Shown one piece after another: positions 13,659-19,924 of a DNA stretch of 33,641 nucleotides. The stretch is from IMG/VR virus record IMGVR_UViG_3300044833_000124, positions 1 through 33,641 of that record; one strand, given 5' to 3'. The position numbers and the translations under genes are program-made. The stretch's first letter is position 1; each line of letters begins with the position of its first letter. The notes beneath the pieces were generated by a model, which saw only the letters and a list, made by a program, of their open reading frames with translations, made no database searches and was not told the origin of the DNA. The DNA is from a virus.

Positions 13659-14414
13659 CTAAAAACCTTGTAACATATTAATTTTCAAGTAAGCAGAACT
13701 TGGTGCAGCGTTCGTGCCTAACGTTGGAGAATTAATATTAACAACTGATGAACTTGTATTAGCTAATGTTAATACATCGCCAGCCGCTAATTTCACATAC
13801 ACATCTGCGACAATCTCATTTGATTGTTGTTCAGGTGAAATGGTTTGATTAGCAAAAGTAGAACCAGGGACGAGAACACCATTTTTGAAGAGCGATAATG
13901 TCCAGACTGGTAGTGGGCTTGGGATTGGATTTAATGCACCGCAAATTCCGGTTGCAATATCATACCATCCTGCTTTGTTAACTACGATTTGACCATTAAC
14001 TGACGCATTAGATACATCAATATTAGGAGTTGCATAAATAGTATTTTCTAACAACACTAATCCACCAGCGAGATTTGTACCAGGTGATGCTGCCAATGCT
14101 TGATTTGCTTTGCTATAAACTTCTGCAAATTCAGCATTAGAGCCGAATGGAGGAGGTGGAGGTGTTGGATGTGTATCTCTGCAATTTACACAGCTTCCTG
14201 GGATACCTTGTGGACCTTGAATCCCCATTTCGCCTTGCAAACCTTGTGGACCAGACGGGCCAGCAGCACCTTGGTCACCTTTCGGTCCCATCGGGCCAAC
14301 TGCACCTGGCAAGCCTTGAATACCTTGTACACCTTGCTGACCTTGTACGCCCTGCATGGATGCTGAGCATGGGTCAGTTTTGCATTTACAATCATGATCA
14401 TAATCTTTTGACAT
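13659..14414 (-). CDS. Collagen-like phage protein with C-terminal jelly-roll-like domain, copy 1
   Basis: A 251-residue protein. The N-terminus is Cys-rich ([11 protein letters not shown]), then come 17 uninterrupted Gly-x-y triplets from about residue 22 to 73, then CVNC and a proline hinge ([10 protein letters not shown]). The C-terminal ~150 residues ([35 protein letters not shown] and so on) look like the BclA/C1q-type trimeric beta domain: [38 protein letters not shown]. It should form a rod-like homotrimer. Two such leftward genes sit together. They may be virion fibres, or exported decoys for host surfaces. Signal peptide: none. Confidence 0.85.
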
Positions 14415-14444
14415 ATTATCTTCCTTGTTTTAAGTAGTAGTGGA

Positions 14445-15155
14445 CTAGTCTGCTTTTATTAACACTATGGAGAAAGACGCTGAATTTATAGCGCAATTAA
14501 CTCCAAAGTGAGAATTATTTAAGATGAGCGGCGCATTAGTCATATTATAAAGTCCTACTTTATCGCCTGCATTCAGGTGGACCAAGAATACAAATGTAAC
14601 ATAATTATTCGCCTGCGATGATGTGATAGTCATATTCGTATCCTGAGATCCGGGGACCAAAACATCATTTACAAAAAGTGAAACACACCATGAAATTAAT
14701 GGCTGACGTAACGGGTTAATCGTGCCATTTATTGATTTTGTTAGTTGATATACACCGGCTTTATTTACAGTGATATCACCAGAAAGATTTGCTTGGGAAA
14801 CATCAATATTGGAAGTACTGAAAACTACATTTTCAAATAAAACTTGTCCGCCCTTTAAATTTAAACCAGGAGATGGTGCGAGTGTTTGTAGTTCTTGCGA
14901 ATAAAGTTGCGCGTATTCATTTTGGTTGCTATCGCAATTCACACATGCTCCAGGAATACCTTGCGGGCCAGTTTGACCCATGACTCCTTGAATACCTTGA
15001 GGTCCAACAGGTCCAGCACTACCTTGCAAACCTTGTGGACCAGCAGGCCCAACAGGTCCGGTCAATCCTTGGATACCTTGAGGTCCTCTTTGACCTTGCT
15101 CGCCTTGCATTGAAGCTGAGCATGGGTTTGGTTTACATCCGCAATCTTTGCTCAT
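14445..15155 (-). CDS. Collagen-like phage protein with C-terminal jelly-roll-like domain, copy 2
   Basis: A 236-residue paralogue of the gene downstream. It has the same order: Cys-rich start ([11 protein letters not shown]), 17 Gly-x-y triplets ending [12 protein letters not shown], and a beta-rich domain ([60 protein letters not shown]). Triplet number is equal in both copies while the triplet sequences differ, so length seems to be selected. A TTAAGGATAG site precedes ATG. It is the first gene of the leftward pair, with a 30-base gap to the other. The C-terminal domain is less similar than the collagen part. Confidence 0.85.
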
Positions 15156-17662: not shown

Positions 17663-17839
17663 ATGACAGAAAAAAAAGTAACATGGAATGATCTACACGA
17701 AGCTACATCACATGAATTGCGTAAGACTTATCGTCTAGATGAACGACAACTTGAGCAAGCAGTGCGAAAACATTGGGATGGCGCGAATCATACTGAACAA
17801 CGTGCGCTATATGAAAAAGTATATTCAAAAAGGAGATAA
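17663..17839 (+). CDS. Small helical protein, 58 aa
   Basis: A 58-codon frame behind an AAGGATATCTT ribosome region. The product MTEKKVTWNDLHEATSHELR continues as a charged helix (LDERQLEQAVRKHWDGANHTEQRALYEKVYSKRR). Good codon use and a tight fit between portal and the next small gene (2 bases apart) support it. Mixed charge and no hydrophobic segment. It is the first of five mini-proteins between portal and scaffold. I do not recognise it. Confidence 0.6.
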   Translation: MTEKKVTWNDLHEATSHELRKTYRLDERQLEQAVRKHWDGANHTEQRALYEKVYSKRR

Positions 17840-17841
17840 TA

Positions 17842-18012
17842 ATGAGATCAAATGCTAAGAATAGATCCGGAAAAGTTGTTCCTTATAACGAACATGAAGC
17901 TAAGGTTAATAAAACTGACATTGCTGCTAAGCAAAAAGGTGTTAATCCTGTTGCTAAAGATACAAATAAGACACGGCGTAAGATGGTTAAGCCGACTTCG
18001 AGAGGTAGATAA
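17842..18012 (+). CDS. Small basic protein, 56 aa
   Basis: A 56-residue lysine- and arginine-rich protein (MRSNAKNRSGKVVPYNEHEA, ending TRRKMVKPTSRGR). An AAAAGGAGATAATA ribosome site overlaps the end of the previous gene. It has no fold I can recognise and is probably disordered. Basic mini-proteins in late phage operons may bind DNA or enter the capsid; that is only a suggestion. Confidence 0.6.
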   Translation: MRSNAKNRSGKVVPYNEHEAKVNKTDIAAKQKGVNPVAKDTNKTRRKMVKPTSRGR

Positions 18013-18014
18013 TT

Positions 18015-18167
18015 ATGCCGCTGAAAAAATCTACTAGTAAGAAAGCCTTTTCAGATAATATCCGCGCTGAGATGAACGCGGGAAAACCTCAAAAGCAAAG
18101 TGTGGCCATCGCATATAGTGTTAAACGTGAAGCACAGAAAAAAGGTAAAAAAAAGGGGAATAAATAA
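18015..18167 (+). CDS. Small basic phage protein with GKPQKQSVAIA motif, 50 aa
   Basis: MPLKKSTSKKAFSDNIRAEM is followed by NAGKPQKQSVAIAYSVKREA and a lysine-rich tail. The core (S-x-N-I-x-x-E-M-x-x-G-K-P-Q-K-Q-x-V-A-I-A) is one I know from a very widespread unnamed family of phage mini-proteins. The start lies 2 bases after the previous stop and the stop overlaps the next start (TAATG). Function unknown. Confidence 0.75.
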   Translation: MPLKKSTSKKAFSDNIRAEMNAGKPQKQSVAIAYSVKREAQKKGKKKGNK

Positions 18168-18352
18168 TGGCTGAAAAAAAGAAATTTATCGCAAATGCTA
18201 TCAAGAAACCGGGCGCATTACATAAAGAAATGCATATTCCCCAGGGAGAAAAAATTCCAGCTAAGAAACTAAATGCCGCAGCTAAAAAAGGCGGAAAACT
18301 TGGCGAAAGGGCGCGTTTAGCTAAGACATTAAAATCAATGCATAAAAAATAA
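18167..18352 (+). CDS. Small basic phage protein with AIKKPGALHKE motif, 61 aa
   Basis: The product begins KKKFIANAIKKPGALHKEM and continues IPQGEKIPAKKLNAAAKKGG, then RARLAKTLKSM. K-x-F-I-x-x-A-I-K-K-P-G-A-L-x-K and G-x-I-P-x-K-x-L-x-x-A-x-K mark another widespread unnamed phage family. It is strongly basic with one or two short helices. One base overlaps the previous gene. It may bind nucleic acid in the capsid or control late genes; no evidence beyond charge and place. Confidence 0.75.
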   Translation: MAEKKKFIANAIKKPGALHKEMHIPQGEKIPAKKLNAAAKKGGKLGERARLAKTLKSMHKK

Positions 18353-18398
18353 GTGTTATACTTTTTTCTTACAACTAACTGTTAATGGAGTAACAGAA

Positions 18399-18656
18399 AT
18401 GAAACATCGCGAAAGTAGTTATGAAAGAAAACACGAAAAACGTGAAATGCATGAACGACGTGAACGCAAAGAAGAACACCACGGAAAAATGGATATTAAC
18501 GATAATCGAAAAGTTACAGATAATCATCAAGGTGGTATTGAACGAGTCTTGATGCGAAAAGGTGATTTGGTTAAAGGTAAAGGCGGCAAGATGCACAATG
18601 AAGGCGAATCTAACTTTGATCGCTCTGGCGCTAGCTTAACCCCGCGTAAAGCTTAG
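18399..18656 (+). CDS. Charged His/Lys/Glu-rich protein, 85 aa
   Basis: The first 30 residues are almost only charged (MKHRESSYERKHEKREMHER and on), expected to form a single helix; the second half is glycine-rich and basic (GDLVKGKGGKMHNEGESNFDRSGASLTPRKA). I do not recognise a family. The start has a GGAG site (AATGGAGTAACAGAA). It is the last gene before a terminator, so it ends the portal transcript. Confidence 0.65.
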   Translation: MKHRESSYERKHEKREMHERRERKEEHHGKMDINDNRKVTDNHQGGIERVLMRKGDLVKGKGGKMHNEGESNFDRSGASLTPRKA

Positions 18657-18677
18657 TTTTATTATTCCCTTAAAAAG

Positions 18678-18713
18678 TGTCGTAAGAGCTAGCTTTTGCG
18701 ACATTATTTTTTG
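18678..18713 (+). terminator. Rho-independent terminator after the mini-protein genes
   Basis: TGTCGTAAGAGCT (18678-18690) pairs with AGCTTTTGCGACA (18691-18703) over 13 positions with two wobble pairs, followed by TTATTTTTTG. It separates the portal transcript from the scaffold-coat transcript. In the following 230 bases I see one more hairpin (TTCCCG 18728-18733 with CGGGAA 18747-18752) and otherwise plain AT-rich DNA. Confidence 0.8.
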
Positions 18714-18945: not shown

Positions 18946-18974
18946 TTGATATTTTTATTTAACCATCCTATAGT
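18946..18974 (+). promoter_or_regulatory. Strong promoter of the scaffold-coat transcript
   Basis: TTGATA (18946-18951), exactly 17 bases, then TATAGT (18969-18974): five of six consensus bases in both boxes. Transcription would start near 18981, at the first base of a hairpin, giving a leader of about 158 bases before the scaffold start codon. Confidence 0.75.
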
Positions 18975-18980
18975 ATATAT

Positions 18981-19118
18981 GTAGATATTTTCATCTACCG
19001 AGACTCGTGCGTTATGCGAGGTATAACCGTCACGGGGTCAATAGTGCTTGTTACCTGATCAAGTAAAAACCAGGCGAGACTCTTGCGGATTAGAGGTATC
19101 ACCGTTGCGGGGTAATAG
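18981..19118 (+). ncRNA. Structured 5' leader with two copies of a 44-46-base motif
   Basis: GTAGAT (18981-18986) and ATCTAC (18993-18998) form a hairpin at the predicted 5' end. Then come two related units, 18999-19044 and 19075-19118. Both read CGAGACTC, a loop with TGCG, GAGGTAT, ACCG, three bases, CGGGGT, AATAG. The stem CTCG/CGAG in unit one is CTCT/AGAG in unit two, a compensating change, and ACCG/CGGGGT encloses three variable bases in both. CCTG (19053-19056) and CAGG (19070-19073) can pair in between. The ribosome site AGGGAG follows 5 bases after unit two. This looks like a cis-acting RNA that controls capsid gene expression. Confidence 0.65.
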
Positions 19119-19138
19119 CTAAAGGGAGAAAGTTGAAC

Positions 19139-19924
19139 ATGGAAAGTTCAGGCGACGTAGTTGTACAAAGTCAAAGTAGTAATGTTTCAGCGCCAGTTAG
19201 CAGCAATACCGCTGACAATAATTCTTATTCTTCTCCAGCGTCACAAACTGCAGATGAAAGAATATTTAAGCAATCTGAAGTAAACGACATCGTAAAAAAA
19301 GCGAAGTATGGTGCAGTTGAAGATTTTAAAAGGATCTCTCAACAGCAGCCGGACTATGCGCAAAATAAGTATGGTAATAATGCTAATCAACCAGCACAAC
19401 AACCTGCCTATCAGCAAAATACACCGCAAAATATTTATGATGTTGATCAAGTCAGGCGTATTGCTTCGGAAGAACTTCAACGATCACGTGATGAGTGGGT
19501 AAAAGAAGTACAGCAACGTGAAGAAACAGCCCAAGCGCAGCGTGTAGTGAATAACTTCTATAGCAAGCAAGCTACCGGTAAAGAAAAATACCAAGATTTT
19601 GACACAATTACAGGTGATATTGATTACGCTCACTTCCCTCATGTTGTCCAATTATTAGCCGATCATGTCGATAACGCTCATGACTTAATGTACGAGTTCG
19701 GAAAAGATCGACTAAAAATGGATGCAATAGAGAATCTAGCAAATCGCTCACCAAACGACGCTATTAAGCAGATGCAACGGTTATCACAATCATTAAAAGA
19801 TAACGAAGCAGCAGGCAAAATACGCACGCCGAATGAACCACTGTCGCAACTACGCCCTTCGAATACCGGAACGGGTACAGGTGCTTTGTCAGTGAGAGAT
19901 TTGCGAGCTAAATATCGCGCATAG
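19139..19924 (+). CDS. Capsid scaffolding protein
   Basis: A 261-residue polar protein directly before the coat gene, where P22-type phages encode scaffold (gp8, 303 residues). The N-terminus is Ser/Asn/Gln-rich and disordered (QSQSSNVSAPVSSNTADNNS), the middle helical with many Gln (NQPAQQPAYQQNTPQNIYD), then IASEELQRSRDEWVKEVQQRE and FGKDRLKMDAIENLANRSPNDAIKQMQRLSQSLKD. The end is basic and helical (LSVRDLRAKYRA), as in the coat-binding tail of scaffolds. ATG 19139 fits the GGGAG site 10 bases before; the TTG at 19133 is too close. Sequence identity to known scaffolds is not claimed. Confidence 0.8.
   Translation: MESSGDVVVQSQSSNVSAPVSSNTADNNSYSSPASQTADERIFKQSEVNDIVKKAKYGAVEDFKRISQQQPDYAQNKYGNNANQPAQQPAYQQNTPQNIYDVDQVRRIASEELQRSRDEWVKEVQQREETAQAQRVVNNFYSKQATGKEKYQDFDTITGDIDYAHFPHVVQLLADHVDNAHDLMYEFGKDRLKMDAIENLANRSPNDAIKQMQRLSQSLKDNEAAGKIRTPNEPLSQLRPSNTGTGTGALSVRDLRAKYRA

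Follow-up and report, generated by a model that had tools for sequence, protein, structure and literature searches.

Tandem pseudoknot RNA units in the scaffold gene leader of uncultured phages with a P22-type portal, and their possible role in scaffold feedback

The window analysed here, the whole 33,641-nt stretch of IMG/VR virus record IMGVR_UViG_3300044833_000124, encodes the P22-type portal protein that marks a P22-like podovirus virion module (PF16510, E 4.7e-96; phrog_156), together with terminase genes, head closure protein Hc3 and a DNA-ejection protein. Relatives of the portal in annotated phages, among them phages of Vibrio, Thalassomonas and Shewanella, are at ~22-24% identity among the matches listed, and the carriers of the element described below are a large uncultured lineage of short-tailed phages with this portal type. 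Five small, mostly basic ORFs (17663-18656) lie between the portal gene and the leader under study, with homologues of each in 45-65 of the 80 loci examined. Two adjacent ORFs with collagen-like repeats (13659-15155, - strand) run opposite to the virion genes; the one tested matches PF01391 and, weakly, BclA_C. The features of the leader and the genes that follow it are listed below.

18676-18705, + strand: terminator-like hairpin with T run, 3' of the portal and small-ORF block (one found, 0.2 expected in shuffles)
18946-18974, + strand: promoter-like site TTGATA-17-TATAGT (10/12 consensus matches)
18981-18998, + strand: small 6-bp hairpin at the likely transcript 5' end, outside the repeated unit
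18999-19046, + strand: unit 1 (model match 18999-19048, 59.8 bits)
18999-19000 with 19010-19011, + strand: unit 1, 5' CG paired to the hairpin loop (CG; 2 bp)
19004-19007 with 19017-19020, + strand: unit 1, P1 (counted in the 98-unit pairing test)
19027-19028 with 19035-19036, + strand: unit 1, S1 (counted in the 98-unit test)
19031-19033 with 19044-19046, + strand: unit 1, S2 (counted in the 98-unit test)
19075-19121, + strand: unit 2 (model match 19075-19121, 52.7 bits)
19075-19076 with 19086-19087, + strand: unit 2, 5' CG paired to the hairpin loop (CG; 2 bp)
19080-19083 with 19092-19095, + strand: unit 2, P1 (counted in the 98-unit and 47-leader tests)
19102-19103 with 19110-19111, + strand: unit 2, S1 (counted in the 98-unit and 47-leader tests)
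19105, 19107 and 19108 with 19121, 19119 and 19118, + strand: unit 2, S2 (19106/19120 is a U-U mismatch)
19122-19128, + strand: Shine-Dalgarno sequence AAGGGAG, directly 3' of the unit 2 S2 strand
19139-19924, + strand: scaffolding-protein gene, 261 aa
19988-21301, + strand: putative coat (major capsid) protein gene, 437 aa, ATG 19988

The scaffold assignment comes from the gene's place before the coat gene, from its homologues and from a fold model; we use the ATG at 19139 as its start, the ORF list beginning at TTG 19133. The predicted structure is helical (mean pLDDT 78.9), and its nearest neighbours in a viral structure library come from uncultured phages and include several that are named scaffolding protein. 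Searching the PDB with the model gave no match at E<=0.001, and hence no recognisable RNA-binding fold, with two P22 scaffold entries appearing only at E 2.5 and 3.5. The coat protein has homologues in IMG/VR, and its putative identity follows from gene order and from the assignment made in the original prediction. Neither protein matches Pfam or PHROG, neither has a sequence relative in the collection of annotated phages searched, and the leader DNA shows no convincing relative there either, its three matches being short, AT-rich and at E 0.08 or worse. The original prediction had placed the RNA in the leader of the capsid gene; the leader belongs to the scaffold gene, which the coat gene follows.

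Judging from sequence, the candidate promoter at 18946-18974 would plausibly start a transcript near 18981, where the small hairpin begins. Among the relatives, the upstream sequences show no enrichment for a simple sigma-70 match (14/91 vs 11.7 in shuffles). Many of them carry a recurring TTTTTGCA block ~40-50 nt upstream of unit 1 (e.g., L005, L015, L083), and in a subgroup with an additional ANGGA hairpin a GACTAC block lies ahead of that hairpin; both blocks are possible parts of lineage-specific promoters.

Within the scaffold leader one RNA unit occurs twice, the starts lying 76 nt apart. In each copy the loop of a 4-bp hairpin (P1) is paired to the first bases of the unit itself, and an H-type pseudoknot comes after the hairpin. 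The consensus reads NN-A(G/T)A-CYYN-loop-NRRG-G-linker-A-S1-GU-NNY-G-S1'-G-(U)UAAUA-RNN, in which NN pairs with the hairpin loop, CYYN with NRRG (P1), S1 with S1', and NNY with RNN (the S2 pseudoknot); the hairpin loop and flanks hold the conserved unpaired bases AGAC, UGCG and AAUA. The spacing of 76 nt and the replacement of CTCG/CGAG in unit 1 by CTCT/AGAG in unit 2 are present as originally predicted, and the pairing across relatives described below shows that the resemblance of the units and the compensating change are not due to chance. Of the structure itself the prediction had caught P1 but missed both the H-type pseudoknot and the 2-bp pairing between 5' end and loop. It was also right that the second unit ends at the ribosome site, the S2 strand running to 19121 and the Shine-Dalgarno sequence following without a gap; the distance from the end of S2 to the start codon is 10-18 nt in 60 of the 64 leaders measured. 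A covariance model built from relatives and the window's two units recovers both and matches nothing else in the window at E<=1. Folding each unit as a single sequence was uninformative (z-scores of -1.4 and +0.4), and minimum-free-energy folding proved misleading here, since it predicts in unit 1 a long hairpin that is not common to unit 2. Five relatives (L043, L084, L097, L100, L119) have a longer linker between P1 and the pseudoknot in one unit, several of which look like an extra inserted hairpin.

Covariation carries the case for a structured RNA. We assembled 98 non-redundant units from 141 unique ones (6 long-linker units dropped, 37 within 4 edits of a kept one), with 24 further candidate cores excluded for an off-pattern 5' start. 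Of the 1066 cells in this set 96.2% are paired, and sliding the partners by 1-3 columns lowers this to 26.0-47.0%. The S1 and S2 scores are partly circular, since the pattern used to cut out the units required S1 to pair and complementarity was used to place the end of S2. Two-sided changes occur in 251 cells (13-39 in slid controls) and at 10 of the 11 pairs, the sole exception being the outermost P1 pair, where all departures are unpaired cells (12/98). One S2 pair is found as G-C, A-U, G-U, U-A and C-G, and another alternates between A-U (50 units) and G-C (48).

Because the 98-unit set had been cut requiring S1, the test was repeated on 47 leaders chosen only for preceding a scaffold homologue (from 66, near-duplicates removed), a set free of that circularity: 87.8% of cells pair, against 19.0-54.3% in slid controls, with 67 two-sided cells against 5-33. 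P1 reaches only 72.7% in this set because its register is misaligned between subgroups. A third test, likewise free of the circularity, addressed the first pseudoknot of more distant members in 60 loci with the second pseudoknot as their sole anchor (L309 left out; columns named from one row); here 345 of 399 cells pair (86.5%, controls 25-44%), with 88 two-sided cells against 9-30. A search for the first pseudoknot under looser rules gave 49/63 against 17.1, some of the picks being plainly wrong. The further compensating changes that the original prediction expected in homologues are thus present in all three sets, and the evidence for a tandem structured RNA that changes in this compensating way is strong.

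In the same three sets G-U exceeds A-C on the mRNA strand (32/13, 19/0 and 42/14), which points to the RNA of that strand. This bears on the idea that the repeat is a DNA-level element, serving packaging, replication or single-stranded DNA structure and lying in the leader by coincidence. Its single fixed place in each genome would suit such an element, but the G-U excess and the fixed spacing to the start codon both argue for RNA, and we regard the DNA-level reading as very improbable.

Relatives were gathered through the coat protein. Close patterns gave 185 IMG/VR homologues, of which the best 80 were taken; 11 of these loci begin inside or past the scaffold gene, leaving 69 with a leader, and all 69 have at least one model match. 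Two separate matches are found in 58 of the 70 sources with a match (window included); of the other 12, several show a second unit by eye, either overlapping the first match or too divergent for the model. All 128 model matches in 1.03 Mb lie in the scaffold leader. Distant alignment gave at least 359 coat homologues, and among the best 80 of these the model finds 44 matches at E<=1, in 43 loci and all on the + strand. Some of the remaining distant loci have an incomplete leader or no scaffold start that we could find, and in many a divergent form is visible on inspection. A search based on the anatomy of the pseudoknot covered 55 non-redundant distant leaders and succeeded in 44, where first-order Markov shuffles lead one to expect 4.0; the usual layout there is pseudoknot-hairpin-pseudoknot, with the first hairpin absent. 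A host search in genome bins gave four matches, all in unrelated MAGs; strong RNA matches are confined to phage contigs of three (G001, G002, G004), the fourth (G003) having weak ones only.

Three further scans of IMG/VR used the RNA pattern and no protein. Combined, they place the unit before the scaffold/coat pair in 139 of 145 loci, and 5 of the other 6 end at a contig edge, although these sets are not fully independent of the protein-based set because contigs are shared. The first two scans found scaffold or coat downstream in 87 of 89 loci, the other 2 ending within 82 nt of the unit; the third did so in 52 of 56 new loci, 3 of the rest ending within 111 nt, while L309, with 736 nt present downstream, resembles a chance match. 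Across the loci of these scans the unit serves one virion gene only and never a metabolic gene.

This restriction weighs on the analogy to glycine riboswitches raised in the original prediction, by which the two units would be paired aptamers for a small molecule. Tandem aptamer-like units with conserved loops do have that appearance, and a pseudoknot adjoining the Shine-Dalgarno sequence recalls translational riboswitches. However, an element found before a single virion gene does not support the analogy, nor does Rfam 15 offer a riboswitch match: the whole window gives 0 matches at gathering score, and the surroundings of the leader give 3 at E<=10, weak and unrelated. We consider a metabolite-sensing role quite unlikely.

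A role free of any ligand deserves more attention. The pseudoknots might shield the 5' end of the mRNA against decay or keep the ribosome site open, giving constitutively high yields of scaffold and coat. The element sits at the likely transcript 5' end and beside the Shine-Dalgarno sequence, tandem copies would add protection, and virion genes need high expression. The conserved unpaired AGAC, UGCG and AAUA suggest specific recognition instead, although some of these bases could be structural within an H-type pseudoknot. On balance such an element is doubtful, if a serious alternative.

The ANGGA loop invites comparison with a host regulator. CsrA/RsmE sites are short hairpins whose loops show the consensus ANGGA. 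In 39 of 94 leaders (0.7 expected), those of L011, L023, L030, L046 and L079 among them, a hairpin with an ANGGAN hexaloop and a covarying closing stem sits immediately 5' of unit 1, its closing pair varying among A-U, C-G, U-A and U-G; we take it to be a putative CsrA/RsmE-like site, a likeness confined to this subgroup. Since the scaffold Shine-Dalgarno sequence also reads ANGGA in some of these leaders, bridging by CsrA is a side idea. More generally, a host RNA-binding protein, whether a ribosomal protein or, in the subgroup, CsrA, might tie scaffold synthesis to the state of the host. Yet the ANGGAN hairpin is a separate element that the window and over half of the leaders lack, and the twin units themselves are without an ANGGA loop, so that we think a host protein rather unlikely as the ligand of the units.

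The best explanation, which we infer with about as much confidence as doubt, is feedback on the initiation of scaffold translation by a phage protein of the same operon that grips both units. The leader folds into two compact units, with the last strand of unit 2 adjoining the scaffold Shine-Dalgarno sequence. The ligand would most likely be free, unassembled scaffold as a dimer or tetramer, or possibly coat; once bound, it would stabilise the second pseudoknot and block loading of the 30S subunit. Scaffold synthesis would then fall as scaffold accumulates and rise as scaffold is drawn into procapsids, coat synthesis following that of scaffold by coupling or through a shared message. As to the ligand, we favour scaffold and then coat, with confidence standing near the midpoint; the grounds are the contact between S2 and the Shine-Dalgarno sequence, the start-codon spacing, the restriction to one gene, and the precedents of T4 gene 32 and P22. 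The case for autoregulation by one of these two proteins, the best-supported functional reading, is thus one of position, exclusivity and precedent.

Three points stand against it. The scaffold model shows no recognisable RNA-binding fold in the PDB search; the RNA core is still recognisable where scaffold identity drops to about 26-30%, as would equally be expected if the ligand were a constant host molecule; and a pair of strong pseudoknots might need no ligand to act. The scaffolds of the distant loci (e.g., L182, L180, L220), at about 25-30% identity to the window's, keep a C-terminal block around PNEPLSQxRPSNxGT, with N222 and P234 invariant in 58 sequences. The broader proposal, a lineage-wide RNA assembly sensor in which free scaffold oligomers read paired pseudoknot operators and procapsid assembly sets the translation of scaffold and coat, is one we hold tentatively and think somewhat likelier to fail than to stand. 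If true, scaffold autoregulation in phages with a P22-type portal would have an RNA operator of defined structure, one retained while the scaffold itself diverged to less than 30% identity.

The RNA family is well supported, has no counterpart in Rfam 15 and singles out one operon of a large uncultured phage lineage; its covariance model is a possible marker for that lineage and its late operon in metagenomes. A literature search, whose coverage mostly excluded subscription papers and preprints, found no description of the element, which we regard as a new RNA family within a known kind, the cis-acting phage leader RNAs. The nearest described RNA found is the STAXI motif, a pseudoknot unit in two or more tandem copies, near ssb, topoisomerase, integrase and antirestriction genes and frequently with UUCG loops (PMC2864571, Weinberg et al. 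2010). The window's element shares the tandem pseudoknot but not the DNA-binding or DNA-manipulating neighbours, its loci leading instead into scaffold and coat. Glycine and other tandem riboswitches are likewise tandem copies of one structured leader unit, before metabolic genes. The likeness to the glycine riboswitch ends with the tandem copies, the consensus being another, the context that of a virion gene and Rfam silent; neither the aptamer consensus nor the metabolic context of a known metabolite riboswitch (glycine, SAM-II type) is found here.

Phage systems offer further parallels. T4 gp32, a single-strand-binding protein, represses its own mRNA through a leader operator in which a single 5' pseudoknot precedes a stretch of unstructured UUAAA repeats, so that a leader pseudoknot can nucleate autogenous repression (PMC535899). 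The present element resembles it in being a pseudoknot upstream of the ribosome site in a phage mRNA leader, and differs in having two units, no UUAAA/UAAA repeats and its last strand against the Shine-Dalgarno sequence, so that it does not have the layout of a gene 32-type operator. Autoregulation has been reported for the scaffold of P22 (Wyckoff and Casjens 1985, cited in PMC5744158). The gene here is also a scaffold gene, in a phage with a related portal, and scaffold feedback would follow the same logic. We know of no RNA target for the autoregulation by P22 scaffold. Since the P22 work of the 1980s it has been asked how unassembled scaffold senses and restrains its own production, and if scaffold is the ligand of the twin units, they would offer a compact RNA-protein pair in which to see how that limit is set.
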